Part shown: positions 8,416 through 47,503 of the stretch, piece by piece
Position numbering within the stretch: the stretch's first letter is position 1
How the letters are laid out: each line of letters opens with the position of its first letter
From: Paraflavitalea soli
Lineage (GTDB): Bacteria > Bacteroidota > Bacteroidia > Chitinophagales > Chitinophagaceae
Direction: 5' to 3'
Length of the DNA: 64,000 nucleotides
NCBI RefSeq assembly: GCF_003555545.1
Contig: NZ_CP032157.1
Coordinates: 2,298,546-2,362,545, forward strand
Made by a program: the position numbers and the translations under genes
Notes under the pieces: generated by a model
The model's input: only the letters and a program-made list of their open reading frames with translations
Database searches by the model: none
What the model was told of the DNA's origin: nothing

Positions 8416-8480
8416 CAAAACTATTTAAGTCTGTACACGACAATGCTGATGTGGCTTATTGCGCCACCTGATTTTGATCA
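8416..8480 (-). promoter_or_regulatory. CRP/FNR-type box plus -7 element of cco operon (class I)
   Basis: Read on the minus strand. The operator TGATtttgATCA is at 8469-8480 and is the core of a perfect 8-bp inverted repeat (CACCTGAT/ATCAGGTG, 8465-8484). The -7 element TAGTTTTG (8423-8416) matches TAnnTTTG at all six positions. Box centre to element end is 58.5 nt. A TTG -33 candidate lies at 8443-8441. The first codon (ccoS) starts 20 bases past the element. Confidence 0.8.
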
Positions 8481-8491
8481 GGTGTAAAAAT

Positions 8492-8531
8492 GACAAAGGG
8501 TGAACCGCCCTCAGCGGGCGCCCACCCTTTG
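8492..8531 (-). terminator. Long hairpin after ccoI, probable terminator
   Basis: Directly after the ccoI stop, ACAAAGGGTG at 8492-8501 pairs with the complementary arm ending at 8531, and an inner CCGCCC/GGGCG stem strengthens it. There is no long T run, so it may act as a bidirectional or attenuating structure. Its sequence resembles the tandem repeat units near 60.3 kb. Confidence 0.5.
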
Positions 8532-10925
8532 TTACAGATCCAGTTGATTGGCCACCAGTCTGCTGCTGCCAAAAGTGACCAGCAGGATACTGAGACTGCT
8601 GGCAGGCATCAGGATTGCAGCGATCAGGGGAGAAAGCGTTCCCTGTACGGCAAAGTACAGACCGATCACATTGTAAACAATCGACAGAAAGAAACTGGCC
8701 ATGATAATATAACGGTTGGCCTTGCACAAACGGATGAACTTAGGAAGCTTTGACAATTGCGCCGCTTCCAGGATGGCATCACTGGCCGGGGTAAAGTTGT
8801 TGGTATCTTCCGTCAGTGCAATGCCAGCATCGGCCTGGCGCAAAGCGCCTGCATCATTCAGGCCGTCGCCTATTACCATCACCCGCTTGCCCATCTTTTG
8901 TAATTGCTCCACGTGACGCAGTTTATCTTCGGGTCTTTGATTGAACAGCAAAGTGCTATTGTGAGCAAACAGCCTGCGCAGATTTTTCTCTTCCCGGTTG
9001 TTATCGCCGCTTACCAGGGAGAGCCGGTAGTGCTTCCTCAGTTTTTTGACCAGTTCAGGCACTTCATCACGGTAATGACTGGTAAATACAAAACATCCCT
9101 TGGATGCATAGTTCCAGTTGATGTACACACGGCTGCCTCCTGTATTGGACGGATGGACGTTCTTTGCATAGAAGGCGCTGCCCAATTGAATGAGCGTATC
9201 ATTCACTATGCCAGCAACACCTTCGCCCGGTATTTCCCGGAATGCTTCCACCTGAAGGGAAGGATCATGGGGAAGCCAGCTGCACAAAGCACGTGTAAGG
9301 GGATGATTGGTTTGCGCAGCAACTGCGGCGATCATTTTCAACTGATCGTTGGAAAGCCTTTCGCCTTCATAGCCCACATTCATATCCTGCACTGTAGTAA
9401 GTGTGCCCGTTTTATCAAATACAATATGATCAGCTTTGGCAATGTCTTCAATAACCTGGGCATCCCGCAGGTAAAATTGGTTGCGGCCAAGAATACGCAG
9501 GATATTACCCTGTGTAAAAGTGCCCGACAGGAGCAGCGCGCAGGGGCAGGCCACGATCAACATGGCAGTAACGGCGTTGGCAATTCTGGAGGGGTCGTTG
9601 ATCCACCAATAGAGGGCGGCAATAGCAGCCAGGCCAAACAATACATAAGTAAAATAACGGCTGATGAGGTGCACAAAAGACGACTGCTCTTTAGGTTGCT
9701 TCCGGCGCAAAGCGTCCTGGTTCCATAGCCTTGTTAAATAACTCTGCGCCACTTCCCTTGTCACCAGCACTTCGATGGTACCGCCTTTTTGCCGCCCGCC
9801 CGCATATACGATCTCTCCCATATCCTTGGGTATGGCCATCGACTCGCCGGTCACAAAACTGTAATCGATCAGTGCGTTGCCTCTTGTCAGAATACCATCT
9901 GCCGGAATGAGCTCTTCACTGTGAATACGCAGGGTATCGCCCGGCTTAACGACAGGCAGCGCTACCGCCATTTCACGGTCATCGGCTACTACCGTCACCG
10001 ATATGGGGAAATAGGAAGTATAATCCCGTTCGAATGAAAGTTGACGGTAGGTTTTGTCCTGTAATACTTTTCCTGCGAGCATAAAAAATACAATGCCCGT
10101 CATAGAATCGAAATACCCCCCGCCGGTGCCGGACAACACTTCATAAAGACTCCTGCCAAAAGTGATGAAGATAGCCAATACAATGGGGGCATCGATGTTG
10201 AGAAAACGGTGGCGCAGGCTCTTCCATGCCGATTCATAAAAAGGAATGGCGCTATACAGCACGACGGGCAAGGCCAGTACAAGGTTCAACATACGAAAAA
10301 TACCCTGTAGGTGTTGCTCGGAAGCAGCCAGGCCAAAATATTCCGGGAAGCTAAGCAACATGATATTGGCAAAGGAAAAGCCCGCCACCCCCAGTTGCTT
10401 AATATATTTTTTGTCCTGCGGCGGTCTCGCCCCGTTCAGGTCCGCCAGGCTGATATAGGGTTCATAGCCGATCTGCGTCAGCAATTCTGCGATCCTCCGC
10501 AAGCTTACTACCTGGTGGTTGATATCTATTTGGATCTCTTTACGGGTAAAATTGACGCGGGCCGCCAGCACACCCGGCTGTAATTTATGCAGGTGTTCCA
10601 GCAGGTACAAGCAGGAACTGCAATGGATATGCGGCAGGTAGAAAGTGACCCTGGTTTGCTCATTGTTCTGAAAACTAATAAGCTTCTGTATGATCCGGCT
10701 ATCGTCGAGGAAGGCGAACTTATCTTTCCGTACGGGAATTTGTTGGGAAGCGCCAGGCTGCCGGTTCAGGGCATAATAATCGCATAGGCCCTGCTGATTG
10801 ATCAGCTGGTAAACCGATCTGCAGCCTGCGCAGCAGAAATGGACGCCGGCAAGGCTGATGCCCTCATCCGGGCATTCTTCGCCGCAATGCGCGCACTGCA
10901 ACCCCGTATGGTTCGTTGGTAACAT
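8532..10925 (-). CDS. ccoI: CcoI/FixI copper P1B-type ATPase
   Basis: A 797-residue heavy-metal P-type ATPase. The N-terminus has a Cys-rich metal-binding domain (CAHC at 11-14, CCAGC at 31-35) and an HMA-like domain with PHIHCSSC (Cys102/Cys105). Further on are the CPC transport motif in ACPCALLLSG (near residue 458), the phosphorylated DKTGT (near 503) and GDGLNDAGAL. FixI-type pumps export copper for loading into the cbb3 oxidase. The gene is transcribed separately, 330 bases upstream of the oxidase operon, from its own class I box overlapping the intergenic region shared with the divergent regulator. Confidence 0.93.
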   Translation of the reverse strand: MLPTNHTGLQCAHCGEECPDEGISLAGVHFCCAGCRSVYQLINQQGLCDYYALNRQPGASQQIPVRKDKFAFLDDSRIIQKLISFQNNEQTRVTFYLPHIHCSSCLYLLEHLHKLQPGVLAARVNFTRKEIQIDINHQVVSLRRIAELLTQIGYEPYISLADLNGARPPQDKKYIKQLGVAGFSFANIMLLSFPEYFGLAASEQHLQGIFRMLNLVLALPVVLYSAIPFYESAWKSLRHRFLNIDAPIVLAIFITFGRSLYEVLSGTGGGYFDSMTGIVFFMLAGKVLQDKTYRQLSFERDYTSYFPISVTVVADDREMAVALPVVKPGDTLRIHSEELIPADGILTRGNALIDYSFVTGESMAIPKDMGEIVYAGGRQKGGTIEVLVTREVAQSYLTRLWNQDALRRKQPKEQSSFVHLISRYFTYVLFGLAAIAALYWWINDPSRIANAVTAMLIVACPCALLLSGTFTQGNILRILGRNQFYLRDAQVIEDIAKADHIVFDKTGTLTTVQDMNVGYEGERLSNDQLKMIAAVAAQTNHPLTRALCSWLPHDPSLQVEAFREIPGEGVAGIVNDTLIQLGSAFYAKNVHPSNTGGSRVYINWNYASKGCFVFTSHYRDEVPELVKKLRKHYRLSLVSGDNNREEKNLRRLFAHNSTLLFNQRPEDKLRHVEQLQKMGKRVMVIGDGLNDAGALRQADAGIALTEDTNNFTPASDAILEAAQLSKLPKFIRLCKANRYIIMASFFLSIVYNVIGLYFAVQGTLSPLIAAILMPASSLSILLVTFGSSRLVANQLDL

Positions 10926-10941
10926 AGTAGTAAATGATCGC

Positions 10942-11006
10942 CGAAATTAGATGCTCCCATCCACCGGTCTGCTGAGAGGCGTCAAAGCCGCACATGATTT
11001 TAATCA
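10942..11006 (-). promoter_or_regulatory. CRP/FNR-type box plus -7 element of ccoI (class I)
   Basis: The operator TGATtttaATCA is at 10995-11006. On the minus strand the -7 element TAATTTCG (10949-10942) matches TAnnTTTG at five of six positions at the standard 58.5-nt distance. The box also lies 72 bases before the start of the divergent receiver-CRP gene, so autoregulation is possible. No good -7 element at a matching distance was seen on the plus strand. Confidence 0.7.
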
Positions 11007-11077
11007 GTTCTGCGGGTTTTAGCAGGAAAATATTTACTATTGCAGTGGTAAATCATTCGGTAACCAAATCTTTCCAC

Positions 11078-12136
11078 ATGCAATCCCTGCTCATAATTGA
11101 CGACCACGATGATATCCGCGAAAACATTGCAGAGATCCTTTCGCTGGCTGGCTATAAAACATTTAGCGCGGAGAATGGGAAAAAAGGAGTGGAAAAAGCA
11201 CTACAGGAAAAGCCAGACCTCATTATTTGCGACATTATGATGCCTGAATTGGATGGATACGGTGTATTGCACCTGCTACGCAAAAATCCTGAAACGGAAT
11301 TCATTCCTTTTATTTTCCTCACCGCTAAAACGGAAAGGTCGGATTTTCGTAAAGGCATGGAAATGGGCGCCGATGATTATATTACCAAGCCTTTTGATGA
11401 TATTGAGTTACTCAACGCTGTGGAAATCCGCCTGAAAAAATCAACGATCCTGCAGAAGAAATATGCCACCGGAGAACAAGGCGCCACCGCCATGATCAAT
11501 GACCTGCGGCAGTCGGGCCTGTTGAAAATGCAACTGGATAATTATGAAGCCTACAACAGTGCTAAAAAAACAACCTTGTATGCAGAAGGAAAAAGGCCCA
11601 AATACCTGTTTTATCTTAAATCGGGGAAAGTAAAAGTATATAGGCAGCATGAAGACGGTAAAGAATATATCGTGAACTTATATACCGCCGGAGACTTTAT
11701 CGGTTACCTGCCTTTGCTGGAAAATAAGTCCTACGAGGATGCTGCCGAAATAATGGAAGAGGCCGAAATAATACAAATACCCCGGGAAGACTTTTTACAG
11801 ACAGTTTACAACGATATGAGTATCGCCGGCCGCTTTATTAAACTGATCGCCCAAAATGTACAAGATAAAGAAGAGCGCCTGCTGAACCTGGCCTATGGCT
11901 CCCTGCGCAAACGGGTGGCAAAAGCCCTGGTGGATATCCATCAGAAATTCAACAAAGAGGCAGCCGATAAAAGTCCGATCAATATTTCCCGTGATGACCT
12001 GGCTCATTATGTAGGGACAGCTACGGAATCACTGATCCGGACCCTGAGTGATTTTAAATCTGAAAAGCTTATTGAGATCAAAGAAGGTAAGATCTTTATC
12101 ACCAACCTGGAGAAACTAAAAAACCTGCTTTACTAA
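11078..12136 (+). CDS. Receiver-CRP/FNR fusion transcription factor
   Basis: A 352-residue regulator. Residues 3-122 are a response-regulator receiver with Asp8/Asp9, phospho-acceptor Asp52 (CDIMMP), Thr82 and Lys104. Residues about 150-260 are a cNMP-binding-type beta barrel. Residues 275-345 are a CRP winged helix-turn-helix whose recognition helix is YVGTATESLIRTLSDF. Glu317 and Arg321 match the CRP/FNR residues that read TGA. Thr316 and Ile320 replace the residues giving CRP and FNR their outer-base preference. The only Cys (51) lies in the receiver, so there is no FNR iron-sulfur cluster. I start at 11078 (MQSLLIIDDHDD): an upstream ATG at 10994 would put 28 unrelated residues before the receiver and lies inside the ccoI operator. 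It is the presumed activator of the boxes in this window, with phosphorylation as the switch. Confidence 0.9.
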   Translation: MQSLLIIDDHDDIRENIAEILSLAGYKTFSAENGKKGVEKALQEKPDLIICDIMMPELDGYGVLHLLRKNPETEFIPFIFLTAKTERSDFRKGMEMGADDYITKPFDDIELLNAVEIRLKKSTILQKKYATGEQGATAMINDLRQSGLLKMQLDNYEAYNSAKKTTLYAEGKRPKYLFYLKSGKVKVYRQHEDGKEYIVNLYTAGDFIGYLPLLENKSYEDAAEIMEEAEIIQIPREDFLQTVYNDMSIAGRFIKLIAQNVQDKEERLLNLAYGSLRKRVAKALVDIHQKFNKEAADKSPINISRDDLAHYVGTATESLIRTLSDFKSEKLIEIKEGKIFITNLEKLKNLLY

Positions 12137-12555
12137 GGCCTTGTTCTGTCTTCATTTTGATCGTCACCCTGGTTTATCCGTACACCCGGCGCGAGGGATA
12201 TTTCCATACCATGCTCATTCTGCTGTTTCAATGTCCAGCCATCCGTAATGGTGGTTTCCAGCCACAGCGTACCGCTTTTACGGAATACCTGCAGATGCAG
12301 GCCTAACCGGTCTTCAAAGAATTTTTCCAACTCCTGTACTGTCATATTTTCGGATATAATGATCTGTTCGGGCAAATTGGAGCCCAGATCATCCAGGTAT
12401 AGAAATGGCGGCAATTTTTCCTGCTTTGGTGAACCGCCCTGGTAACTGTGCTTATGCTTAAACAATTCAAGCCTTAAAAAAGGGAACAACAGGTTAAATT
12501 CCCGCTGCACATCAATTACCTGGCTCCTGCTGTTTATTGGGATAATCATATACAT
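12133..12555 (-). CDS. Conserved hypothetical protein in the FNR-box regulon
   Basis: A 140-residue soluble protein of unknown family. It has no signal peptide or membrane helix. An aromatic N-terminal part (NLLFPFLRLELFKHKHSY) is followed by a middle segment with strand/helix character. The C-terminal part has the pattern FFEDRLGLHLQVFRKSG, then TLWLETTITDGWTL, suggesting a small alpha/beta fold. Its end overlaps the end of the convergent regulator by four bases. It has its own class I box and a full-consensus -7 element, so it is likely part of the low-oxygen response. I propose no function. Confidence 0.7.
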   Translation of the reverse strand: MYMIIPINSRSQVIDVQREFNLLFPFLRLELFKHKHSYQGGSPKQEKLPPFLYLDDLGSNLPEQIIISENMTVQELEKFFEDRLGLHLQVFRKSGTLWLETTITDGWTLKQQNEHGMEISLAPGVRINQGDDQNEDRTRP

Positions 12556-12599
12556 TTTTTTACTTTTATACTACTGCCTTTCCAGACATGCTATAATAA

Positions 12600-12664
12600 C
12601 AAAGCTACCGGTTGGAAAAGGCGCCGCAAATGATGTAAGAACGGGTTCCACCTGATCTTAATCA
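12600..12664 (-). promoter_or_regulatory. CRP/FNR-type box plus -7 element (class I) for 12.1-kb gene
   Basis: The operator TGATcttaATCA is at 12653-12664. The minus-strand -7 element TAGCTTTG (12607-12600) matches all six consensus positions at 58.5 nt. It is one of a divergent pair: the neighbouring box at 12680 faces the other way, 15 bases away. Confidence 0.78.
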
Positions 12665-12679
12665 TACCGGCAGCCTGCT

Positions 12680-12744
12680 TGACAGGGATCATAACCCGCT
12701 GTGACTGTTGTCAATACATGGTAGCTTTGTAATGGATAACTTTA
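12680..12744 (+). promoter_or_regulatory. CRP/FNR-type box plus -7 element (class I) for acetyl-CoA hydrolase
   Basis: The operator TGACagggATCA is at 12680-12691 and the -7 element TAACTTTA at 12737-12744, 58.5 nt from box centre to element end, with the start codon at 12769. A better consensus copy, TAGCTTTG (12722-12729), is also present but off the common spacing. It could be a second promoter. Confidence 0.75.
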
Positions 12745-12768
12745 CGCTCTTTATCAACCTATTAGCAC

Positions 12769-14052: not shown

Positions 14053-14078
14053 ACGGCTTGCAGGAAAGGCTCGCCTGA

Positions 14079-15035: not shown

Positions 15036-15052
15036 AAAACTTATTGATACTT

Positions 15053-15095
15053 ACAAGGTAAATGCTGCTACCAAAAGATCTCCTGACAACAATCA
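15053..15095 (-). promoter_or_regulatory. Possible class II promoter of pfkB sharing the 15.08-kb box
   Basis: On the minus strand TACCTTGT (15060-15053) matches four of six TAnnTTTG positions and ends 36.5 nt from the centre of the box at 15084-15095. That is the same distance seen in the two clearer class II promoters at 45.2 and 47.5 kb. The start codon would follow at 15035. Confidence 0.45.
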
Positions 15096-15148
15096 GTTAC
15101 GGGCATGATCCTCGTATTATATAGGGCCTATACAAGCCAGTAGCTTTA
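15084..15148 (+). promoter_or_regulatory. CRP/FNR-type box plus -7 element (class I) for Zn-ADH
   Basis: The operator TGACaacaATCA is at 15084-15095 and the -7 element TAGCTTTA (15141-15148, five of six matches) ends exactly 58.5 nt from the box centre. The alcohol dehydrogenase start follows at 15177. Confidence 0.75.
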
Positions 15149-22332: not shown

Positions 22333-22572
22333 TTAAAAATTGGTTAAGTAAAAGCTAATGCAAATTTGTAAATCAAGGAAAAGCGTTGCAGCGCGCATAT
22401 CATGAAAAACAATGTTAAGTATAATGAACAAACCCATTAATAAGGATATATAGGCCCATTGCCAATACGAACCGCCAAAACCTTTTTTTAATTTTCCGGC
22501 AGGTTTTTTACGATTGAAGTAACTCCCCAACAGAATGCCTGCCACGGCCAGCCCAAGGCTGAGTTTACTCAT
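22333..22572 (-). CDS. Small membrane protein, unknown
   Basis: A 79-residue protein starting MSKLSLGLAVAG. It has two hydrophobic segments (about 4-19 and 34-55) separated by a basic loop (NRKKPAGKLKKGFGG). The basic loop predicts that the loop faces the cytoplasm. No family is recognised. It is divergent from the persulfide dioxygenase gene, whose operator at 22.58 kb starts ten bases upstream of this start codon, so a bound regulator could also affect this gene. Confidence 0.5.
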   Translation of the reverse strand: MSKLSLGLAVAGILLGSYFNRKKPAGKLKKGFGGSYWQWAYISLLMGLFIILNIVFHDMRAATLFLDLQICISFYLTNF

Positions 22573-22581: not shown

Positions 22582-22646
22582 TGAGGCCTCTCATACTTGT
22601 ATGTAACTTAAGGCACTTATAGACTGTAGGCTGTAGCTCATCTTTG
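22582..22646 (+). promoter_or_regulatory. CRP/FNR-type box plus -7 element (class I) for MBL-rhodanese
   Basis: The fully palindromic operator TGAGgcctCTCA (22582-22593) and the -7 element CATCTTTG (22639-22646, five of six matches) are exactly 58.5 nt apart. This box uses G at the fourth half-site position, showing that only TGA/TCA is constant. Confidence 0.65.
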
Positions 22647-24106: not shown

Positions 24107-24529
24107 CAAACATCTACACCCTTTCTGTTACTTATTGGCTGATCAAGCGGAACCCCCGAAATACTTTGCGATGATGAAGAAGCTCAATAAGGTAAACCGG
24201 CCTTTGCCAACCCAATTGCCTCTCTATCAGCACAATAAGAACATACTGTTTTTTCAGGAGGTATGAACAAGTGGTTACAGGAAGGTAACATAGTGGTTTC
24301 CTGATCGTTTGAAATTTTAATTCAAACATATTCCCAAAGGGCGGTTCCGGAGAACTGCCCTTTTTGACTTTTTTTGTTTGGTATCTAATGACAAACACAG
24401 GAATGCCATCATTTTTCATAGCAGGGTATGATTACGGTCATTCGTTTTATCTTCCTTAACCTTCAACTTTGACTCTATATCAAAGACGAAACAACTGTAT
24501 ACGCCGCTATTTTAAGCCTGTGCTTACTT
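24107..24529. other. Gene-free stretch of about 420 bases
   Basis: It lies between convergent genes. It holds one terminator hairpin (24339-24360) and a 31-codon reading frame (24171-24266) that has no recognisable features. No FNR-type box, repeat or RNA gene was seen. Confidence 0.6.
24339..24372 (+). terminator. Rho-independent terminator
   Basis: GGGCGGTTC (24339-24347), loop cgga, and GAACTGCCC (24352-24360) form a nine-pair stem with one G-T pair. T runs follow at 24361-24365 and 24369-24375. It lies about 230 bases after the persulfide dioxygenase stop. Confidence 0.75.
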
Positions 24530-28197: not shown

Positions 28198-28418
28198 GGT
28201 AACTTTTTTTTTAAAAGATCAAACCATTTTTTCCCTGCTTTTGCCAGCCAACGTCCCGAGAGCAGGGAGAAGCCCCAGGATACTGTACTCATCAATACCT
28301 GGCTGCTGTTCTTCAACCCCTGCCATTGATGCGTCATTTTCTCTTCCAGCCTGATCTGCTTTTGCAGCAACTTTTGCTGTTCTGCCTGGAGTTGGTGTAT
28401 ATTTTTAATCTTCTTCAT
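28194..28418 (-). CDS. Small coiled-coil protein, unknown
   Basis: A 74-residue basic protein: a Gln/Glu/Lys-rich coiled coil (about 5-32) and an amphipathic C-terminal half ending KKWFDLLKKKLP. No signal peptide is seen. It overlaps the holin-like gene by 14 bases and ppsA by four, so it is translationally coupled to both. Such short genes beside YtxH and phage-holin-like genes are common in Bacteroidota stress operons. The function is unknown. Confidence 0.6.
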   Translation of the reverse strand: MKKIKNIHQLQAEQQKLLQKQIRLEEKMTHQWQGLKNSSQVLMSTVSWGFSLLSGRWLAKAGKKWFDLLKKKLP

Positions 28419-28770
28419 CGGCCACCTCGTTTTTAAACAGTTGATGAATGATCTTATTCATGACCGGAATACGGATCATCCGTTCTTTAGCGCCCCAGGT
28501 AATGATACCTGCAAGCAGGTAAATGACAGCCACTACCAGGAAGCCGCTCCAGGGTTTACCAATCCACGCCGACAAGGCTAAGGCGCCGGCAATACTGCCA
28601 AATACCAGTACGAATAAGAACACTACTGCCACGATAGCGCCAGCCACCAGATCGGAAATGATAAGAGAAGTTTTTTCTGCGGCCTTTAATTTCATCGAAT
28701 CCACCCGCGTATTCACATATTCTTTTGCTGCGGCTGCCAGTTCGTGAATGCCAGTCATTGGTCCTTCCAT
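28405..28770 (-). CDS. Phage holin-like (DUF1469 type) membrane protein
   Basis: A 121-residue protein. An amphipathic N-terminal helix (8-35) is followed by two closely spaced membrane helices (about 38-68 and 74-94) and a charged C-terminus (KNEVADEED). This is the layout of the putative actinobacteriophage holin III / DUF1469 family, which in free-living bacteria occurs next to YtxH and DUF883-like stress proteins and is not a phage lysis gene. No other phage gene is nearby. Its role is presumably in the envelope stress response. Confidence 0.72.
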   Translation of the reverse strand: MEGPMTGIHELAAAAKEYVNTRVDSMKLKAAEKTSLIISDLVAGAIVAVVFLFVLVFGSIAGALALSAWIGKPWSGFLVVAVIYLLAGIITWGAKERMIRIPVMNKIIHQLFKNEVADEED

Positions 28771-29038: not shown

Positions 29039-29103
29039 CTAAGTTATTCAGCGCCTACCCGGTAATCTATGACAGGGATCAACGGAAACGCTGATCATGC
29101 TCA
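29039..29103 (-). promoter_or_regulatory. CRP/FNR-type box plus -7 element (class I) of YtxH-ppsA operon
   Basis: The operator TGATcatgCTCA (29092-29103) and the minus-strand -7 element TAACTTAG (29046-29039, five of six matches) are 58.5 nt apart. It interlocks with the divergent AI-2E promoter: each promoter spans the other's box. Confidence 0.68.
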
Positions 29104-29134
29104 ATCAAAAAAAATGTACGGTCCTGTATTTTTA
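29070..29134 (+). promoter_or_regulatory. CRP/FNR-type box plus -7 element (class I) of AI-2E gene
   Basis: The operator TGACagggATCA is at 29070-29081, with the same spacer as the 12.68-kb box. The -7 element TATTTTTA (29127-29134, five of six matches) ends 58.5 nt from the box centre and only five bases before the ATG, so the mRNA would be almost leaderless. Confidence 0.65.
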
Positions 29135-32444: not shown

Positions 32445-33284
32445 TTATTTGTTGTGTGCGATGAACAAAGGCATTTTTACTTCTTTCATGAGCAGATCGG
32501 CCATGCTGGGCCTGAACCACCTTGAGACCATGCCGCGACGGTAAGCGCCTAATACCAGTAAATTGTTGCCGCCGTAAGTACGCAGGTGCCGCAGTATTTC
32601 TGTTTCAGGATCGCCTTTCAACACAGTATACCTAGCATCCGGCAAATGACGTTTCATAAATTCTTTCATCAACCTGTTGTCGGGCACATGAGAGGAATGA
32701 CCAGGCTTGCTGACTGTTACCACCTCCGTTTCTTCTATGAGGAGGTCGCCCAATACATAACAATACATCCTGGTAGCGAAAACAGAAGAAGGTTCCCCAT
32801 CATACAGAATACTTACCTTTTGGACCGGCTTGTACTGCTCAGGCACCACGAGTACAGGACATTGTACCCCTTCCAGCAGTTCACGTACAAACCGGGTAGG
32901 AAGTTCTTCTTCATAATGAGTGAGTGTTTCGTGGACTTGAATGATCAGCAGGTCGGCATAAATACTTTCGTGCAATAATTCCTGCAGCGCAATATTACGA
33001 TCGTGGTGAACCGAGTAATTGATCGAAGCATTGTCGCAGGCTGCTTTAAATTGTTCTACTGCTGATGCTCTTTTTTCGATATCACCCTCCTCCAGTATCG
33101 ATCTTTTCTCTTCCGCCACGCCTTCAGGCCCTGTCAATTCATAGATCTTATAACTATGATAGGTGAGATCATCGAGGAATACACCAACGAGGTGGGCGTG
33201 TTGCCGGGCGGCAATAGCTACTGCATATTGAACGGCAGACTTTGCCGGTTTTAAGCCATCAAGGGCTACTATTATTTTTTTCAT
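32445..33284 (-). CDS. Tandem universal stress protein (first copy)
   Basis: A 279-residue protein with two Usp domains. The N-terminal one begins KKIIVALDGLKPAKSAVQYA. The C-terminal one ends with the nucleotide-binding pattern LLVLGAYRRGMVSRWF followed by MPLFIAHNK. Only the second domain keeps the G-x2-G-x9-type ATP-binding loop. Double Usp proteins are markers of hypoxia and dormancy responses. It has its own class I box and precedes the GyrI-like lipoprotein in the operon. Confidence 0.88.
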   Translation of the reverse strand: MKKIIVALDGLKPAKSAVQYAVAIAARQHAHLVGVFLDDLTYHSYKIYELTGPEGVAEEKRSILEEGDIEKRASAVEQFKAACDNASINYSVHHDRNIALQELLHESIYADLLIIQVHETLTHYEEELPTRFVRELLEGVQCPVLVVPEQYKPVQKVSILYDGEPSSVFATRMYCYVLGDLLIEETEVVTVSKPGHSSHVPDNRLMKEFMKRHLPDARYTVLKGDPETEILRHLRTYGGNNLLVLGAYRRGMVSRWFRPSMADLLMKEVKMPLFIAHNK

Positions 33285-33302: not shown

Positions 33303-33367
33303 GGAAGGTACACCGGGCAGAGAGTGTCAGCTATGACAGCTGTTAAGAAGCCGGCTGATTGTGATCA
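33303..33367 (-). promoter_or_regulatory. CRP/FNR-type box plus -7 element (class I) of first Usp gene
   Basis: The operator TGATtgtgATCA (33356-33367) overlaps the stop codon of the upstream P-type ATPase gene. The -7 candidate TACCTTCC (33310-33303) matches only four of six positions but sits at exactly 58.5 nt. An extra inverted repeat, TGTCAgctaTGACA (33325-33338), lies between them. Confidence 0.62.
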
Positions 33368-38489: not shown

Positions 38490-39329
38490 TCAGCGGTGCG
38501 TGATAAAAAGGGGTTGCGTTACCGTTTTGATCACTTTCTCTGCATGGCTATGGCGGAAGAAACGGGATACAGCATTCCTACCGTAAGCACCAAATACGAT
38601 GAACACTTTTCTCTTTTTTAGCAGGTAGCCGAATAAAGCCGTGTCCACTTCACCGGGGAGTTCTTCCCATTGGATCACACTATAATGATGTTCCAGCCAC
38701 TCCTGCATTTTAAGTTTATCCGAAACGATCCTTTCTTCACTATCCTTCACATATACGATAATAGCTTTTTTGTCACCCAATTGTGGGAACAGATAGGTGA
38801 ACTGTTTAATGGCGAATGCCGCCGACTCACTGCCGTCCCAGGCGAAAACGATTTCCTCTATACCTTCAAAGCTACAGGGTGCTATCACTACCGGACATTC
38901 GGCATTGGCCAGCATTTCTTCTACAAATGCAGTGGGCAAATTATCCAATTCCTTCCTGCAGGAGGTTTCTGGGTCCACTACCAGCAGGTCGGCATACCTT
39001 GTTTCGCCCATTAATTCTTTCACGGGCATTCCTTTGTCACGATGCACTGCAGTGCCAATACCATGGTTGGCATAAAAGGACCTGAATTGATCTATACCCT
39101 TTTCTATCTTTTGCATTTTTGCCTGCCAGGCAGTTGATCTTTCATCCACTTCCAATCCCACATAGGTGCCCTCGTACATATTCTTCACTACCGGCCGTTG
39201 ATCTTCTGGCTGATTTTCGAGAAATACACCTGTGAGCTTTGAATGGGTAAGACGGGATAGATAGATCCCAAAAGATAAGATATCCCTCCCGGGGTCTCCG
39301 CTATCGAAAGCCATGAGTATCTTTTCCAT
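38490..39329 (-). CDS. Tandem universal stress protein (second copy)
   Basis: A 279-residue double-Usp protein of the same length as the first copy. The N-terminal domain begins EKILMAFDSGDPGRDIL. The C-terminal domain ends FIVFGAYGRNAVSRFFRHSHAEKV, then TQPLFITHR, with a degenerate ATP-binding loop. The family responds to stress and energy limitation. It is first in the Usp-mlaE-mlaF-mlaD-ATPase operon and lies 14 bases from a full-consensus -7 element with a class I box. Confidence 0.86.
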   Translation of the reverse strand: MEKILMAFDSGDPGRDILSFGIYLSRLTHSKLTGVFLENQPEDQRPVVKNMYEGTYVGLEVDERSTAWQAKMQKIEKGIDQFRSFYANHGIGTAVHRDKGMPVKELMGETRYADLLVVDPETSCRKELDNLPTAFVEEMLANAECPVVIAPCSFEGIEEIVFAWDGSESAAFAIKQFTYLFPQLGDKKAIIVYVKDSEERIVSDKLKMQEWLEHHYSVIQWEELPGEVDTALFGYLLKKRKVFIVFGAYGRNAVSRFFRHSHAEKVIKTVTQPLFITHR

Positions 39330-39342: not shown

Positions 39343-39407
39343 CAAAATTACCTTTGTGGCCAGGGTTGGCCTATGATATGCATTAGGCGTAGTGCTGACA
39401 ATGCTCA
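39343..39407 (-). promoter_or_regulatory. CRP/FNR-type box plus -7 element (class I) of Usp-Mla operon
   Basis: The operator reads TGACaatgCTCA on the plus strand (39396-39407). The minus-strand -7 element TAATTTTG (39350-39343) matches all six consensus positions and ends exactly 58.5 nt from the box centre. The box lies just beyond the end of the upstream alcohol dehydrogenase gene. Confidence 0.75.
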
Positions 39408-39439: not shown

Positions 39440-40531
39440 CTAAAAACCGACTGTACAAAAACTTGTTATCAGCCCGGAAGAAAGGTCGAGTACGGCCGCC
39501 CCTTGCAACAGTCCGCTCCGGATGGCCTGCATCGCTTCATTGGCCTGTCGAAGCGGGAAACGCCTGACGGCGGCAATGACCGGCACTTGCGGCGCCATCG
39601 AAAAATAATCATCGCCATCCTTACGGGTGAGATTGGCCACCGAGCAGATACTTCGTTCCTCCCACAATAGCCTGTAGGGGAATGCAGGTATATCACTCAT
39701 GTGGATCCCGCCGCAGATCACCTGCCCGCCCTTGTCTACATCGGCCAGGGCTTTGGGAATAAGCGTCCCGACCGGTGCAAACAGGATGGCCGCATCAAGC
39801 CGCTCCGGTGGTGATTGCGTGGAATCACCCGCCCACGCCGCTCCTAATTCCCGTGCAAACGCTTGAATGGTAACATCTCCCGTATTGGTGAAAGCAAATA
39901 CCTGTTTATGCTGATGGACCGCTACCTGCGTAAGCAAATGTGCAGCCGCACCAAAGCCATACAACCCGATCCTGGTGGCCTGCGGAGCGATCATACGGTA
40001 ACACCGGTGTCCGATCAGACCGGCGCATAATAAGGGTGCCCCGGCAGCATTGGCATAAAGCGCCGGCAATGGGAAGCAATACGAATCCCACGCAAGGGTA
40101 TATTCCGCAAAGCCGCCATCGATGGTGTAGCCGGTGAACAAGGCGCGGTCACAGAGATTTTCCTTTCCGGCAAGGCAATACTTACAGGCACCACAGGTGT
40201 AGGCCAGCCAGGGAATGCCTACATGATCGCCCACCTTTAACCGCCTAACATCTTCACCCGTTTGCTCAACCACACCGACGATCTCATGTCCCTGCACCAG
40301 TGGTAGTTTAGGCTCCTTAAGTTCGCCATCCGCAATATGCAGATCGGTACGGCAAATGCCACAGGCAATCACCTTCACCAACACTTGCTGCCGGCCCGGA
40401 ACAGGCACCGGCAGCCTGCGTAATTCCAGCGGTTGCCCTTGCTTTTGCAATACCATGGCCTTCATATTTTTCGGTATCGACATACTGCTAAGAATTTTTA
40501 TCCCAAACTCAACAGGGATCATATTGGTCAA
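39440..40531 (-). CDS. Zn-dependent alcohol dehydrogenase (second)
   Basis: A 363-residue medium-chain dehydrogenase. Catalytic Cys/His/Glu motifs are visible (CGICRTDLHIADGEL and GHEIVG), with the structural zinc set CGACKYCLAGKENLC and a nucleotide-binding GLYGFGAAAH. It belongs to the AdhP/AdhA-like branch that interconverts primary alcohols and aldehydes. Its first codon overlaps the stop of the coiled-coil gene (ATGA), so I keep the long start at 40531, although MKAMVLQKQG 22 residues further in is the usual family N-terminus. It should be expressed from the class I box at 41.0 kb. Confidence 0.9.
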   Translation of the reverse strand: MTNMIPVEFGIKILSSMSIPKNMKAMVLQKQGQPLELRRLPVPVPGRQQVLVKVIACGICRTDLHIADGELKEPKLPLVQGHEIVGVVEQTGEDVRRLKVGDHVGIPWLAYTCGACKYCLAGKENLCDRALFTGYTIDGGFAEYTLAWDSYCFPLPALYANAAGAPLLCAGLIGHRCYRMIAPQATRIGLYGFGAAAHLLTQVAVHQHKQVFAFTNTGDVTIQAFARELGAAWAGDSTQSPPERLDAAILFAPVGTLIPKALADVDKGGQVICGGIHMSDIPAFPYRLLWEERSICSVANLTRKDGDDYFSMAPQVPVIAAVRRFPLRQANEAMQAIRSGLLQGAAVLDLSSGLITSFCTVGF

Positions 40532-40917
40532 TACACGTTGGCCAGGAAGCGGTAAAACTGCTTTCTTGTTTCCGTATGGTTTTGCTCTGTAGCTTTTAGC
40601 TCATCTTCCAATCCTCCTTCAGGAACCCGCAACGCTCCTATAGCAGGATCCTTTCCCAGCTTTTCCAACTCATTTCTTCTCAGGTTGACTTTGTGCTCCA
40701 GCACATCCAGTTGCTCGCCTTGCAATATGAATTGATTCTGAAAATGCTCCACCTGGGCCAGGATATCCTTACCCGTATTTTTGGAAACTACTTCTTCCAG
40801 TCTTCGCTGATAGATCTTTAATTCATCGCGGCAAAAACTTATAACACTATTTAGCTCATTTAACCGCTTGTGGATAGTAAGTACTGGTTCAAGGGCTGCT
40901 GTTGAATGGTTAGACAT
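40528..40917 (-). CDS. Coiled-coil protein coupled to alcohol dehydrogenase
   Basis: A 129-residue soluble, almost wholly helical protein. Heptad-like stretches run at 12-45 and 50-90 and a third helix at 105-127, suggesting a three-helix bundle. There is no signal peptide. It overlaps the following dehydrogenase by four bases. No family is recognised. Small helical proteins of this kind beside stress genes sometimes act as scaffolds or inhibitors. It has its own class I operator, so it belongs to the same regulon. Confidence 0.65.
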   Translation of the reverse strand: MSNHSTAALEPVLTIHKRLNELNSVISFCRDELKIYQRRLEEVVSKNTGKDILAQVEHFQNQFILQGEQLDVLEHKVNLRRNELEKLGKDPAIGALRVPEGGLEDELKATEQNHTETRKQFYRFLANVY

Positions 40918-40940
40918 GTTTTTTTTATTTTATAGTACCT

Positions 40941-41005
40941 GCAAGCTACCCTGCTTCGGGGCAAGCACCTAAGACCTGTGTCAGCAAGCATACTGACAAT
41001 GATCA
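40941..41005 (-). promoter_or_regulatory. CRP/FNR-type box plus -7 element (class I) of coiled-coil/ADH operon
   Basis: The operator TGACaatgATCA (40994-41005) has the same core spacer as the 39.4-kb box. The -7 candidate TAGCTTGC (40948-40941) matches four of six positions at exactly 58.5 nt. A TGTCA half-site at 40979-40983 forms a second inverted repeat with the TGACA of the box. Confidence 0.6.
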
Positions 41006-41093
41006 ACTCCTGTTAGGATCCGGGAGGCCCCCAACAACTTGTTGCTTATCCCTGTTTTTTGGATGGAATAGGGATTTCACCAGGCTCAGGCCG

Positions 41094-41942
41094 TCAAGCT
41101 TTGATACCATGATGCGCTGTTTCTCCCTGAAAATGCAACGCCATCAGGGGAATATGGCTTTTCAATACGAATTGCTTGGTATGGCTTTTATAAATGAGGG
41201 TATCCCAAAAACTATGCTGCCGCGGCAATACTATCAGAAGGTCCATATTGTTCGATTGAGCAAAATGGAGGATCGCGGCTTCAGTATCTCCCTTAATGAA
41301 ATGAAATTTGTGCTGTACATCTTTTAGCTTCGCACCAAGCCAGCCGGATGCAGATACCAACTGTGGATCGTAAGACTGTTCGTTATGGGTATTGATCACA
41401 TGCAGTGTTGCCTTAAAATCAGTAACCAGCCGGATGATACTATCAAGGGGAACAGTCATTTCCGGTTCTGCCAGATCACAGGCCAGTCCTATCTTCCTGA
41501 TAACATTGAACTTTGCTTCCAACGGCACTGTGATCACAGGCCATACCAGGTGCTTCATAGCCTGAATGGCATGCGTGCCTAAAAAAACACGCTCGACTGC
41601 AGTAGATCCTTTACAGCCCATGATCACGGCATAAGGTTGCAGGCGATCACATACAGTTGTCAGCTCAAGCACAAAGTCCCCCATCCTTACCTCCGTACTT
41701 ACCGATACCTGGCCACCGTTATCCTGTTCCAATTGCTTTTTTAGCCCGTCCATCAGGTCTTCTGTTCCCTGCTCCCAATCGGGCATGCTTATCGGAATAT
41801 CGAGCATGCCATAATTAGCCGGTAACTGGTACACGTGCAGCAGGTGCACGCTGGCCTCAATAGCCCGGGCCATTTCCATGGCATATTGTGTAGCATTTCG
41901 CGCTATCGCCGAAAAATCGGTAGCTACTATCAGTGTTTTCAT
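41094..41942 (-). CDS. Tandem universal stress protein (third copy)
   Basis: A 282-residue double-Usp protein. The first domain begins KTLIVATDFSAIARNATQYAM and ends with VIMGCKGSTAVERVFLGT, a full G-x2-G-x9-G(S/T)-like nucleotide loop. The second domain is more divergent (LLIVLPRQHSFWDTL). Here the ATP-binding loop is in the first domain, the reverse of the other two copies. I start at 41942; a 39-residue upstream extension of the open frame runs through the predicted promoter and operator and is rejected. Confidence 0.88.
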   Translation of the reverse strand: MKTLIVATDFSAIARNATQYAMEMARAIEASVHLLHVYQLPANYGMLDIPISMPDWEQGTEDLMDGLKKQLEQDNGGQVSVSTEVRMGDFVLELTTVCDRLQPYAVIMGCKGSTAVERVFLGTHAIQAMKHLVWPVITVPLEAKFNVIRKIGLACDLAEPEMTVPLDSIIRLVTDFKATLHVINTHNEQSYDPQLVSASGWLGAKLKDVQHKFHFIKGDTEAAILHFAQSNNMDLLIVLPRQHSFWDTLIYKSHTKQFVLKSHIPLMALHFQGETAHHGIKA

Positions 41943-41978
41943 ACAATTATTTTTTTCGTTTATGATTGCTTTACCCAA

Positions 41979-42043
41979 CAAAACTAACCAGATGCCCTTT
42001 GTAACCCGATGACCACAGACCTGCCTGCGCGTGACATAACTCA
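41979..42043 (-). promoter_or_regulatory. CRP/FNR-type box plus -7 element (class I) of third Usp gene
   Basis: The operator TGACataaCTCA (42032-42043) and the minus-strand -7 element TAGTTTTG (41986-41979, all six matches) are 58.5 nt apart. The start codon at 41942 leaves a leader of about 35 bases. Confidence 0.75.
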
Positions 42044-42124
42044 TGTCCCTGTATGACACTCGTTCTTACTTAGCGTTAACCGCCCGAATATCTTTTCCAT
42101 TTACCTTGGTACCCAGGTGATTTA

Positions 42125-42808: not shown

Positions 42809-42820
42809 TGTTTCTCTCCA

Positions 42821-45165: not shown

Positions 45166-45184
45166 CTGAAAGGGAATTGAACCA

Positions 45185-45227
45185 TAAAACTACAGCAGGA
45201 GAATAAAAAGGAAGGTGACATAGATCA
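45185..45227 (-). promoter_or_regulatory. CRP/FNR-type box plus -7 element (class II) of exporter operon
   Basis: The operator TGACatagATCA (45216-45227) lies 36.5 nt from the end of the minus-strand -7 element TAGTTTTA (45192-45185, five of six matches). This is 22 nt, about two helical turns, closer than in the class I promoters. The start codon at 45165 follows with a short leader. Confidence 0.62.
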
Positions 45228-45278
45228 GGTTTCCGCCTGATCCTTCGTTCACTACGCCAGGTTAAACCGTCACCACCG

Positions 45279-45298
45279 ACAGATCATCATTGATCTGT
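45279..45298. repeat. Perfect 8-bp inverted repeat
   Basis: ACAGATCA, spacer tcat, TGATCTGT. The half-sites face outward relative to the regulon boxes (ATCA-N4-TGAT). It sits just after the 45.3-kb lipoprotein gene and upstream of the exporter promoter. There is no T run on either side, so it is more likely a weak terminator stem or a protein site than a strong terminator. Confidence 0.4.
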
Positions 45299-45313
45299 AT
45301 CCCGGGACATCAC

Positions 45314-45940
45314 TTACTGGTTGATCAACACCTGCTTTTTAACGATGTCCTTTACGATCAGCCTACCATATTCATGCGCCAGGCCTTCCATTGATGCAGG
45401 GTCAAAGGATTCCGTCTGCACAGAATACAATAATTCCTTACTCGTTAGGTCATACAGATTACTTTCCCAGAAATACCGGGTGCTGGTAGTATAATAGCCC
45501 GGTGAATAAATACGTCCATACATGGTATTGTAATAGCCCCAGAAACTTCGCTGGTAAATGAAGTAAGGAGAATAATATATTTCGCCGGGAACATAGCGTC
45601 TTTCTTTTTCCTTATCCAGTAATACAATGGTGATCACAGCATCGACACCACTATTTTTTAGTTTGGCCAGAACCGTTGCTTCATCCCTGGTAGCAAGGGC
45701 CTGGGGGCCATATTCCTCTAAGGATGAAACTGCCTGATAACCAAGCGCTTTAAGGTCGCCTACAAGATGCGCTTCCATCTTTGCACGCATGACTGTGTTA
45801 TCATCGCCATTAAGGCCCACCACCAGTATCTTATTGTATTTACCCGTGGCAACGGCATCCGACTTCCAGCTATTTACGATCTTTGAGCTGGAACATCCCG
45901 CTAACAGCAATATTAACAATATAGCCTTTATGACTTTCAT
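45314..45940 (-). CDS. DUF4136-like lipoprotein
   Basis: A 208-residue lipoprotein (lipobox LLLAGC, Cys16). It starts SSSKIVNSWKSDAVATGKYNKILVVGL, a layout seen in small Bacteroidota lipoproteins related to DUF4136. The middle is Tyr-rich (IYYSPYFIYQ, WGYYNTMYG) and the C-terminus resembles an ABC-type auxiliary domain (YDLTSKELLYSVQTES). The function is unknown. No FNR-type box was found within about 80 bases upstream. Confidence 0.65.
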   Translation of the reverse strand: MKVIKAILLILLLAGCSSSKIVNSWKSDAVATGKYNKILVVGLNGDDNTVMRAKMEAHLVGDLKALGYQAVSSLEEYGPQALATRDEATVLAKLKNSGVDAVITIVLLDKEKERRYVPGEIYYSPYFIYQRSFWGYYNTMYGRIYSPGYYTTSTRYFWESNLYDLTSKELLYSVQTESFDPASMEGLAHEYGRLIVKDIVKKQVLINQ

Positions 45941-46015
45941 ATACTCGACTTTATAAGTGTTAATGTACTTAGGTGCAGTAGCCTGCCTTATGTCCGGGAA
46001 TCTATTTTACCTGTA

Positions 46016-47065
46016 TTATTGATACTGGATATACACTGGTTGCGGATACAACTTTAAAATAGCAGCCGGCGTCATCATTATTGGCCAACGCTTGTCCAAT
46101 ACATCTTGTTTATAGAATAATTTAAACCCCGTAAACTGGACCGGCTGGCCGGCGATCCAGTGATCATACGTGTCAATCTTTTTAGCGGGATATCCAAATC
46201 CATCCATATTCAGTACTATTTGTACCTCCGGACACGTTTGTATTTTCCTGTAATTCGTGACCATTGCCTCGGTGAATCGATGCACTACCAGTATCTTTGG
46301 GGGGAGGTTATGTTCTTTCACGAGACGTGCCAGATAATCAGAGGCATAATTGATATCTGTAGCATCCATTGTGCCGATCGTAGTGCAGGGTACTTCCCCA
46401 TTTTTCATAGCATACTCCGGGTCAATTCCCAGGTGCACCTGCGGCAGTAGCAGATATTTTTCCAGTGCCGGGATCTCTTCCTGCAAAGTGCTGTGTCCTG
46501 GCTGTATGTCAAGAAATACAAGCGCATCCAATTCCTTTGCCATTCCGAGTATTTTGTCGATCTGGTGAAAAGGCATTCTAAGCCGGTATTTTTGGGAAGT
46601 TCCCGGACTTCGCTGCGCCGTAACAGCTATATAATGTAATGCAGGACGCACAGGGGTTTCCGGATCGGCTTCCTGCCAGTTTTTTACTTCTTCCTGTAAT
46701 TTTTTGAGCACCTGTTCAGATGACAGGGCGCCCAATATGCCCATTCCTTTTGAATACAGATTGCCATAGTAGGCAACGATCCGGGTAAAAGGAAAAATAG
46801 CTCCTTTCAGTGGATAGGCAGTTTTAACAGGCCAGTTATATGAGGGCCTGTTATGGACAAGGTGTAACAATTTTTGTTCGTATAATATGGTATCTAAGCT
46901 AACTGTGTCTACCCAATGCTCCTTTGGTTCCGTGACAATTGGGCGGGCCGGACTATTTACTAAAATTGACTTTACGGCTCCCGGCTGGTCACAACCTATA
47001 AAAAGGAAGCAGACAAATAATGCTCCCCAGTAAAATTTCAGAAATATGCCGCCACGGGTACACAT
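46016..47065 (-). CDS. Lipoprotein with TIM-barrel-like domain, unknown
   Basis: A 349-residue exported protein with a hydrophobic N-terminus and a lipobox (FLFIGC, Cys25). The rest alternates strands and helices with the patterns FTRIVAYYGN, DALVFLDIQPG, VHLGIDPEYAM, KILVVHRFTEAM and QIVLNMDGFG. These read like successive strands of a TIM barrel with acidic residues at strand ends, as in glycosidases or deacetylase-like enzymes. No family is recognised. It follows the zinc-ribbon gene by 37 bases and may be co-transcribed from the class II promoter at 47.5 kb. Confidence 0.6.
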   Translation of the reverse strand: MCTRGGIFLKFYWGALFVCFLFIGCDQPGAVKSILVNSPARPIVTEPKEHWVDTVSLDTILYEQKLLHLVHNRPSYNWPVKTAYPLKGAIFPFTRIVAYYGNLYSKGMGILGALSSEQVLKKLQEEVKNWQEADPETPVRPALHYIAVTAQRSPGTSQKYRLRMPFHQIDKILGMAKELDALVFLDIQPGHSTLQEEIPALEKYLLLPQVHLGIDPEYAMKNGEVPCTTIGTMDATDINYASDYLARLVKEHNLPPKILVVHRFTEAMVTNYRKIQTCPEVQIVLNMDGFGYPAKKIDTYDHWIAGQPVQFTGFKLFYKQDVLDKRWPIMMTPAAILKLYPQPVYIQYQ

Positions 47066-47102
47066 GAGATGTCTTTTTATAAATTCTTCTAACTTACAGG
47101 AC

Positions 47103-47375
47103 TCAGCGTTTCAGTGAAGCCTGGTTCCATCTTTTTAGATGTGGCAAACTGCTTACTGCAACCTCTATAATATCTTCCGGTATTTTGTTCTCTTCCATTT
47201 TCCTAATTACGATCGATCGCATTTCATCAAGCGTCAAAGCCGGATCAACAAACGCTCCATCCTGGTAGCAATATTTACAATACTCACTGCTTTTTGAACC
47301 GTCTTTCTGAGTGCCTCGCAGTACGGGATCTTCAATAGGCATACTGCAGCTCTGGCACAATTGTCTGTTCTTCAT
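47103..47375 (-). CDS. Putative zinc-ribbon protein
   Basis: A 90-residue protein, MKNRQLCQSCSMPIED at the start, with a second pair in SSEYCKYCYQDGAF, and then a helical C-terminus (LTLDEMRSIVIRKMEE). This is the small zinc-ribbon family whose members read CQSCGMP...YCxYCYQDG. The four Cys bind one zinc. Its role is unknown, possibly regulatory or nucleic-acid binding. I start at 47375; a longer start at 47402 adds nine residues before the conserved Met. A box-controlled class II promoter lies about 85 bases upstream. Confidence 0.82.
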   Translation of the reverse strand: MKNRQLCQSCSMPIEDPVLRGTQKDGSKSSEYCKYCYQDGAFVDPALTLDEMRSIVIRKMEENKIPEDIIEVAVSSLPHLKRWNQASLKR

Positions 47376-47460
47376 AATTTTACTATTTAGGATGATTGCC
47401 ATAGAACGATCCGTACATCTGGCAGGTCAATGTTTCTTCCGGCATCCTGCTTATCAGCAC

Positions 47461-47503
47461 TAAAGGTATCAGCAATGGTGCCCTCTAAAAATGACTGGCG
47501 TCA
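47461..47503 (-). promoter_or_regulatory. CRP/FNR-type box plus -7 element (class II) of zinc-ribbon gene
   Basis: The operator TGACtggcGTCA (47492-47503, arms ATGAC/GTCAT) lies 36.5 nt from the end of the minus-strand -7 element TACCTTTA (47468-47461, five of six matches). The rest of the 47.4-47.6 kb intergenic stretch shows nothing else. It is the right-hand edge of the regulon in this window. Confidence 0.6.

Follow-up and report, generated by a model that had tools for sequence, protein, structure and literature searches.

The window analyzed here, a 64-kb stretch (64,000 nucleotides) of the 8.44-Mb, single-contig genome of Paraflavitalea soli, carries a series of promoters in which paired boxes of the CRP/FNR type stand at fixed distances from a TAnnTTTG octamer, together with a gene at 11.1 kb that encodes a receiver (REC) domain fused to a CRP/FNR-type DNA-binding part. 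In the sequences compared, this arrangement is real, conserved and larger than first noted. In many Bacteroidota, low-oxygen and stress genes seem to be activated by way of such paired boxes at a fixed promoter distance, and the reader of the boxes is probably the receiver-CRP fusion. We regard it as probable that these elements form a low-oxygen regulon that works like FixL–FixJ–FixK, with the receiver and the FixK-like parts fused into one protein.

Geometry of the paired-box operator

A first-pass annotation of the window had described 14 boxes, the first twelve with an octamer 58.5 nt away, and had argued that ten good matches at one spacing could not be due to chance. All 14 coordinates proved correct when checked in the window sequence, and the octamers of the first twelve boxes score as claimed (6/6 in four, 5/6 in six and 4/6 in two); for boxes 45216 and 47492 the octamer lies at 36.5 nt and scores 5/6. 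These 14 are half of the 28 boxes in the window that match TGABN4VTCA. When all 56 sides of these boxes were scored on the six fixed positions of TAnnTTTG, with a match counted at 5/6 or better and the offset taken from box center to octamer end, 11 octamers were found at 58.5 nt and 7 at 36.5 nt, compared with 3 at the next best offset and a mean of 0.34 over the 145 offsets compared. In 100 dinucleotide-preserving shuffles of the window, which yielded 15 box sides on average versus the 56 real ones, the 58.5-nt offset never gave more than 2 matches and no offset gave more than 3. Box pairs 22 bp apart occur four times in the real window and in none of the shuffles. Within bases 1–52067, where 8.6% of the sequence is intergenic, 18 of 27 boxes are intergenic, the gene starts behind this count being the analyst's choice. 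Two of the 11 octamers at 58.5 nt are doubtful as promoters: that at 22646 overlaps a possible GTG start and that at 42096 (+ strand) has no near gene.

The rest of the genome was covered by a pattern search throughout and by a scan of 1.66 Mb (window included), so that about 80% of it was covered by pattern only. In the far background (1.22 Mb, 382 box sides) there were 2 matches each at 58.5 and 36.5 nt, with a mean of 2.28 per offset, indicating that the box-octamer pairing is not general in this genome. The near and targeted 376 kb gave 9 matches at each of the two offsets, versus a mean of 0.97, although this sequence was partly picked from earlier pattern matches and is therefore not an independent test. 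A genome-wide list of perfect octamers contained 40 matches over 31 gaps (12 in the reversed control) and was led by the 58.5-nt offset with six (at 2.307, 2.311, 2.338, 2.341, 2.561 and 7.741 Mb). The 36.5-nt offset had four in this list, equal to the neighboring 37.5 nt, and two of these (0.487 and 3.441 Mb) are not part of the islands described below, so that the list alone supports only the 58.5-nt offset. Two strict boxes exactly 22 bp apart were found at ten places genome-wide and nowhere in the reversed control. In the sequence read, the excess is clustered in three islands: 2.293-2.346 Mb (the window and its left flank), 2.557-2.577 Mb and 7.739-7.741 Mb. Within this coverage there was no sign of a genome-wide regulon, since the far background that was scanned showed no excess.

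A lone two-box site outside the islands lies at 0.445 Mb (444868); it has a 5/6 octamer, precedes a 251-aa frame of unknown kind and stands 16 kb from a REC-less CRP paralog at 461 kb (461043) that has the same recognition helix as the window's fusion protein.

The arrangement is conserved in relatives. We sampled 80 loci around homologs of the window regulator (1.37 Mb; 1044 box sides) and, separately, 244 genomes of a family that is probably Chitinophagaceae; both the loci and the genomes are related to one another, so that counts drawn from them are not independent. The 80 loci contained 164 matches at 58.5 nt and 134 at 36.5 nt, versus a mean of 10.6 per offset, as well as 85 box pairs 22 bp apart versus about 1 per spacing. 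The control box ACTBN4VAGT gave only 5 and 3 matches at the two offsets. Loci with matches include Rufibacter, Adhaeribacter, Flavihumibacter, Niastella and Chitinophaga. The complete 65-bp arrangement, allowing at most one mismatch, was present in 199 of the 244 genomes, with 2 matches in the reversed control. In a sample across the phylum the operator was found in 5/6 genomes of the same family, 2/2 of the same order, 8/21 of the same class and 3/89 others.

One may suspect that short degenerate words scanned at many offsets would produce such a pairing by chance or through base composition. This explanation is contradicted by the shuffles, the reversed controls, the far background and the relatives alike; we consider its probability negligible and reject it, and a similar rate of pairing, which the first-pass annotation had named as a result that would refute its proposed regulon, was not found in the other or shuffled sequence scanned. 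At the sequence level, the proposal of a single operator with fixed geometry on both strands holds in the window and in its relatives, as does the estimate of about 14 promoters in the window.

What the earlier description missed is that its two offsets belong to one tandem operator. The standard form is TGAN6TCA-N10-TGAN6TCA-N23-TAnnTTTG, with box centers 58.5 and 36.5 nt before the octamer end; the offsets differ by 22 bp, or two helical turns, because both boxes are part of the same operator. Eight of the 15 window promoters examined have at least 5/6 core bases in both boxes, and in six of the other seven the weaker position retains an exact half-site. Of the 81 sequences formed by the 80 loci and the window, 70 contain candidate promoters, 228 in all: 154 have two boxes, 38 the distal box only and 36 the proximal box only. 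With the 22-bp pair as the standard arrangement, we reject a single-box operator with two alternative positions as the predominant form. The consensus of the 154 two-box promoters reads TGAtaAaaATCA for the distal box, TGAt....gTCAT for the proximal box, then TAnnTTTG. Its outer base before TGA stays below 42%, at variance with the FNR-type TTGATN4ATCAA. An open reading frame (ORF) starts less than 60 nt behind the octamer in 149 of the 158 promoters followed by an ORF of at least 60 aa.

A fixed distance between box center and polymerase element is a trait of class I and class II activation, for which E. coli CRP sites lie near -62 and -41, respectively. Promoter elements of Bacteroides thetaiotaomicron are described as centered at -7 and -33 (PMC7366714); with the octamer as the -7-centered element, the box centers fall near -40 and -62. 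A -33 TTTG is not conserved in the two-box consensus. That the boxes instead repress, with a dimer over the promoter blocking polymerase, has in its favor that box II adjoins the place of a would-be -33 element. However, both box positions are base-exact relative to the -7 element, which together with the lack of a conserved -33 TTTG in the two-box group fits activation better, and we consider repression very unlikely.

Being palindromic, the boxes allow a single operator to drive promoters in both directions. The window offers an example at 29039/29134, where each box would be proximal for one divergent gene and distal for the other; further examples occur in some of the other genomes.

The fusion regulator and its candidate kinase

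The first-pass annotation had nominated the 11.1-kb gene as a CRP/FNR regulator. It remains the best candidate and is of CRP/FNR type, but Pfam identifies it as a receiver-CRP fusion rather than a plain CRP/FNR protein (Response_reg 2.5e-29, cNMP_binding 9.6e-19, HTH_Crp_2 1.5e-15). The domains of the CRP/FNR superfamily, PF00027 and PF13545, were both found over cut-off, and CRP (1i6x) aligned at 1.8e-17. Among 80 relatives, the REC catalytic residues D9, D52 and K104 are invariant, position 8 is Asp or Glu in all, and position 82 is Thr in 71 and Ser in 9. The recognition helix, GTATESLIRTLSDF, aligns with CRP GCSRETVGR, and its E317 and R321, which we take to be the residues reading the TGA core, are present in 80/80. 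The Arg-Ser pair of the cAMP pocket of CRP was not found: in the CRP alignment the window protein has Glu-Asp at 220-221, and among the relatives column 221 is Glu in 39 or Asp in 38, while column 220 is mixed, with Lys in 22 at most. With the pocket Arg not conserved, cAMP is unlikely as the signal. An FNR-type N-terminal Cys cluster is likewise absent from the fusion, which has the receiver in that place and a single Cys.

HTH_Crp_2 has 17 matches in the genome, of which ten, including the window's, were examined. Three of the ten share the helix of the window fusion: this protein itself, a second fusion in the 2.557-2.577 Mb island and the REC-less protein at 461 kb. Two of these three proteins lie inside islands. 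In the third island, at about 7740196-7740423, we observed a broken third receiver-CRP copy, in which the beginning of the receiver is joined to HTH-like sequence that contains a stop; this remnant is part of what looks like a small, decayed version of the island.

The operator and the fusion go together across the 244 genomes. With the fusion called present at E<=1e-70, 174 genomes have it; 166 have both fusion and operator, 8 the fusion only, 33 the operator only and 37 neither (odds ratio 23). An FNR-like protein (called at E<=1e-55) is found in 24 of the 33 operator-only genomes. Sorted by regulator, the operator is present in 138/146 genomes with the fusion alone, 28/28 with both regulators, 24/33 with the FNR-like protein alone and 9/37 with neither, or in 190 of the 207 with either regulator. 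Among 20 CRP-family stretches from fusion-less genomes, 19 have a GTATE or GTSTE helix, the other being a different paralog. Of these 19 stand-alone proteins, 15 have CxxC in their N-terminal residues, the others having an uncertain start or lying at a contig end. Near-identical helices and the presence of the operator in fusion-less genomes suggest that one operator serves two kinds of sensor; in many fusion-less relatives its reader is probably an FNR-like protein that is Cys-rich at the N terminus and has almost the same helix.

A candidate partner for the receiver is the histidine kinase encoded at the left end of the window. Kinase homologs are present in 69 of the 80 relatives' loci (75 ORFs), and in 65 of the 75 cases the kinase ORF immediately precedes the fusion gene, on the same strand and with at most 300 nt separating the stop-to-stop frames. 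A profile built from the window's PAS domain and those of 45 of 65 relatives passing the length filter (46 in all) matched 14 PDB sequences at 1e-10 or better: seven FixL, six DosP/EcDos and one other kinase, whose structure title reads heme-binding PAS. For a model of the window's PAS domain (mean pLDDT 91), fold ranks 1-28 were all heme-PAS structures. A conserved His aligns with the His of FixL and DosP, the heme ligand of both, in the two alignments shown; it is present in all 46 of the length-chosen domains, and the window kinase combines a FixL-type PAS fold with a His in the place of the heme ligand. At the FixL distal-Arg position (R220 of BjFixL) the window protein has Arg, as do 21 of the 46 domains.

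A two-component pair at 47.6–52 kb was set aside as a partner, since its regulator is of the LytTR type and has a kinase of its own beside it. At 55149-59380 the window also contains a sigma-54 activator with a receiver beside a HisKA_2-type TPR kinase, where no box-octamer pair is listed.

Several observations weigh against our interpretation, besides the kinship within the samples. The Fulvivirga, Flectobacillus and Flaviaesturariibacter loci have no match at 58.5 or 36.5 nt, and outside the class the operator is found near the control rate (1/118). The exact operator is missing from 17 of the 207 genomes with either regulator, including 9 of the 33 with the FNR-like protein alone, and six of the nine genomes that have it with neither regulator are less than 90% complete. 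Proximal-only promoters are T-rich where a -33 element would sit. The window kinase lies about 9.2 kb from the regulator, with the cbb3 genes between. Non-heme PAS and LOV domains also match the PAS model, from rank 29 on, so that the fold alone does not prove heme; over all 75 kinase ORFs the conserved His is present in 65 (7 gaps). The distal position varies as well, being Arg in 21, Met in 13 and Leu in 7 of the 46 chosen domains, with Ile also occurring, and Arg in 28 of all 75 ORFs. Finally, the comparison of CRP-family proteins covers 10 of the 17 matches in the genome, and the REC-less paralog at 461 kb, given its helix, could share or own the operator.

The last points bear on an alternative in which the operator belongs to another CRP/FNR protein, such as this paralog, and the fusion is a neighbor or modulator. 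The paralog's shared helix, the two-box operator 16 kb from it and the stand-alone FNR-like proteins that accompany the operator in many fusion-less relatives all speak for it. Conversely, the operator is found in nearly all genomes that have the fusion and lack an FNR-like protein at the threshold used, and two islands hold the fusion gene and a third its remnant. We judge this alternative improbable and retain the fusion as the likely reader of the paired boxes.

Promoters and predicted target genes

Predicted window targets comprise the cbb3 oxidase, a CcoI-like ATPase (a copper pump), acetyl-CoA hydrolase, alcohol dehydrogenases, universal stress proteins and genes of unknown function; an MBL-rhodanese gene, the AI-2E transporter and the HlyD/MacB efflux genes are possibly further targets (Table 1). 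Judging by gene spacing, the promoter of the universal stress protein gene at 38490-39329 probably also serves the Mla-type and ATPase genes behind it as one operon.

Table 1. Regulator, candidate kinase, promoters and target genes in the window. Promoter rows rest on octamer scoring and inspection of both box positions.
Feature	Position	Strand	Details
Histidine kinase, candidate partner of the regulator	277..1839	+	Pfam PAS, HisKA, HATPase_c; FixL/DosP-type PAS at about residues 105-232
DsbD_2-family gene behind the cbb3 genes	2101-2805	-	DsbD_2 match (2805-3242 outside scan)
cbb3 oxidase genes: CcoNO fusion, CcoP, CcoG	3254..8202	-	COX1 1.8e-121, FixO 3.4e-102, FixP_N, FixG_C
ccoNO promoter	8416..8480	-	box I TGATCAAAATCA, box II TAAGCCACATCA (5/6 core), octamer TAGTTTTG ending 8416
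CcoI-like heavy-metal P-type ATPase	8532..10925	-	ATPase-cat_bd, E1-E2_ATPase; TIGR01525 below its cut-off
Promoter of CcoI-like ATPase	10942..11006	-	boxes 10973 and 10995, octamer TAATTTCG
Receiver-CRP fusion regulator	11078..12136	+	352 aa from likely start 11078; REC, cNMP-type domain, Crp HTH
140-aa protein	12133..12555	-	homologs in 23/80 loci
Promoter of 140-aa conserved unknown gene	12600..12664	-	box 12653, octamer TAGCTTTG
Promoter of acetyl-CoA hydrolase/transferase	12680..12744	+	boxes 12680 and 12702, octamer TAACTTTA
Promoter of zinc alcohol dehydrogenase	15084..15148	+	box 15084, octamer TAGCTTTA
Possible promoter of MBL-rhodanese gene	22582..22646	+	box 22582 (another at 22560), octamer CATCTTTG; overlaps possible GTG start
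Divergent promoter pair on one tandem operator	29039..29134	both	boxes 29070 and 29092; octamer TATTTTTA toward AI-2E transporter, octamer TAACTTAG toward 28405-28770, 269 nt off (from 29039)
Universal stress protein target	32445..33284	-	Usp 7.1e-14
Promoter of universal stress protein gene 32445-33284	33303..33367	-	octamer only 4/6
Universal stress protein target	38490..39329	-	Usp 2.4e-07
Promoter of universal stress protein gene 38490-39329	39343..39407	-	box 39396, box II TAATGCATATCA, octamer TAATTTTG
Promoter of 40528-40917 and alcohol dehydrogenase 39440-40531	40941..41005	-	octamer only 4/6
Promoter of two-Usp-domain gene	41979..42043	-	box 42032, octamer TAGTTTTG; ORF 41094-42059, Usp from residue 40
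Promoter of HlyD/MacB efflux genes	45185..45227	-	box II 45216, half of box I, octamer TAGTTTTA
Promoter of zinc-ribbon gene 47103-47402	47461..47503	-	box II 47492, half of box I, octamer TACCTTTA

Boxes 10973/10995 give no support to autoregulation of the fusion gene, since the octamer at the right place scores 2/6, and in relatives 1 of 80 fusion genes has such a promoter of its own. The gene for the 140-aa protein, which has no Pfam or NCBIfam match at 0.001, overlaps the 3' end of the regulator gene convergently; in relatives, four promoters stand directly before its homologs. On the other side of box 15084, a weak divergent octamer at 15053 (4/6) faces PfkB. At 24429-24471 a box with octamer CAACTTTG at 36.5 nt has no listed same-strand gene behind it within 4.6 kb, and may be due to chance or mark a short gene or RNA.

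In relatives, the genes directly behind these promoters include CcoI in 16 cases (of 26 ORFs), the PAS kinase in 14, one Usp family in 9, PNPOx in 7 and CcoNO in 3. A further 83 promoters had no homolog of a window gene behind them, and 61 ORFs from this group (at least 90 aa, duplicates removed) were scanned; the first 25 of 66 families found among them include HSP20 (7), YceI (5), HemA (4), hemerythrin (4), DoxX (4), ScdA (3), Usp (2), Rrf2 (2), cytochrome c (2) and PFOR (1). By its gene content, the target set looks like a low-oxygen and respiratory-stress regulon.

Proposed mechanism and relation to known systems

We propose that two adjacent CRP/FNR-family dimers on the paired boxes would recruit polymerase, one through sigma plus the N-terminal domain of alpha, its neighbor through the C-terminal domain of alpha, in place of the contact at -33. 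The activator in Paraflavitalea soli would most likely be the 11.1-kb fusion together with its second-island paralog. As oxygen falls, the heme-PAS kinase would phosphorylate the receiver, and the phosphorylated fusion would turn on the cbb3 oxidase, copper supply, universal stress proteins, alcohol dehydrogenases and acetyl-CoA hydrolase, as well as, by operon position, the Mla-type transporter and the cation ATPase. Fusing a FixJ receiver to a FixK-like body would remove one transcription step. In this scheme, heme binding, phosphotransfer, operator binding and activation are predicted from the anatomy of the proteins and promoters, and oxygen is the presumed signal.

The signal could alternatively be nitric oxide or general respiratory stress. 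Heme PAS domains can bind NO and CO (PDB titles include NO- and CO-bound FixL), the targets in relatives include hemerythrin, ScdA and Rrf2 genes, and the varying distal residue may reflect different gas ligands or affinities among relatives. On the other hand, CcoI is the most frequent gene behind the promoter in the relatives' loci, and CcoNO, HemA and PFOR also occur there, as is usual for low-oxygen regulons, and the FNR-like stand-in often has an N-terminal CxxC. We therefore consider a signal other than low oxygen unlikely, though less so than a different owner of the operator, and favor oxygen.

To our knowledge, the action of activators at TAnnTTTG promoters of Bacteroidota is poorly known. 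The box positions and the Glu and Arg of the recognition helix resemble those of E. coli CRP at class I and class II promoters; unlike in that system, a promoter here usually has boxes at both positions, with a spacing of 22 bp, the Arg of the cAMP pocket is not conserved, and the protein has an N-terminal receiver. With Fe-S FNR the system shares the TGA core, the Glu...Arg helix and targets of the low-oxygen type, and its stand-alone relatives often have an N-terminal CxxC, whereas the fusion carries a receiver and contains a single Cys. Mycobacterial DosS-DosR likewise combines a heme kinase with a regulon containing many universal stress proteins and a cation ATPase, but uses a GAF-type heme sensor, a NarL-type regulator and another operator.

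In Myxococcus NmpRSTU, as described in PMC11841059, a heme-dependent kinase also stands at the top of a two-component pathway that controls an oxygen-utilization regulon through paired sites, although the sensor there is a protoglobin, the regulator is NtrC-like and sigma-54-dependent, and the operator is a different one. The closest parallel is found in rhizobia, where, in the account given in PMC7888657, FixL via FixJ, or hFixL via FxkR, activates fixK; the anaerobox TTGATN4ATCAA, used by FixK and FnrN alike, is a single activating box at -32 to -34 in that source's count. Common to both systems, as far as that account extends, are an oxygen PAS kinase, a CRP/FNR-type activator, targets that include cbb3 (fixNOQP) and fixGHIS, and, in FnrN, a Cys-cluster FNR that reads the same boxes (PMC7888657). 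By contrast, the phosphorylated rhizobial regulator is described as inducing fixK (PMC7888657), whereas here the receiver and the CRP/FNR body are one protein. Instead of a single anaerobox, moreover, there are two TGAYN4RTCA-like boxes at about -40/-62 before the Bacteroidota -7 element, with the outer T not conserved. Given this lack of a conserved outer T and of a Cys cluster in the fusion, we do not class the system as a member of FixL-FixJ-FixK. Among the papers listed by a literature search, judged by title or abstract and with a coverage that omits most subscription papers, none describes the fusion or the operator; the domain architecture may be listed in response-regulator census papers.

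Taken together, these results supply a regulator, a probable sensor, an operator of exact geometry and a list of targets for one system, and the geometry predicts transcription starts to within a few bases across many genomes. We lean toward the view that many Chitinophagaceae and neighboring Bacteroidota share one low-oxygen operator but have exchanged its sensor, with an Fe-S FNR in some genomes and a fusion fed by a heme-PAS kinase in most. FNR-like proteins and phosphorylatable receiver proteins that appear to read one operator would provide a natural experiment. If our interpretation is correct, the FixL-FixJ-FixK pathway would here be collapsed into one regulator, and the paired boxes would represent a standard activation geometry for Bacteroidota promoters.

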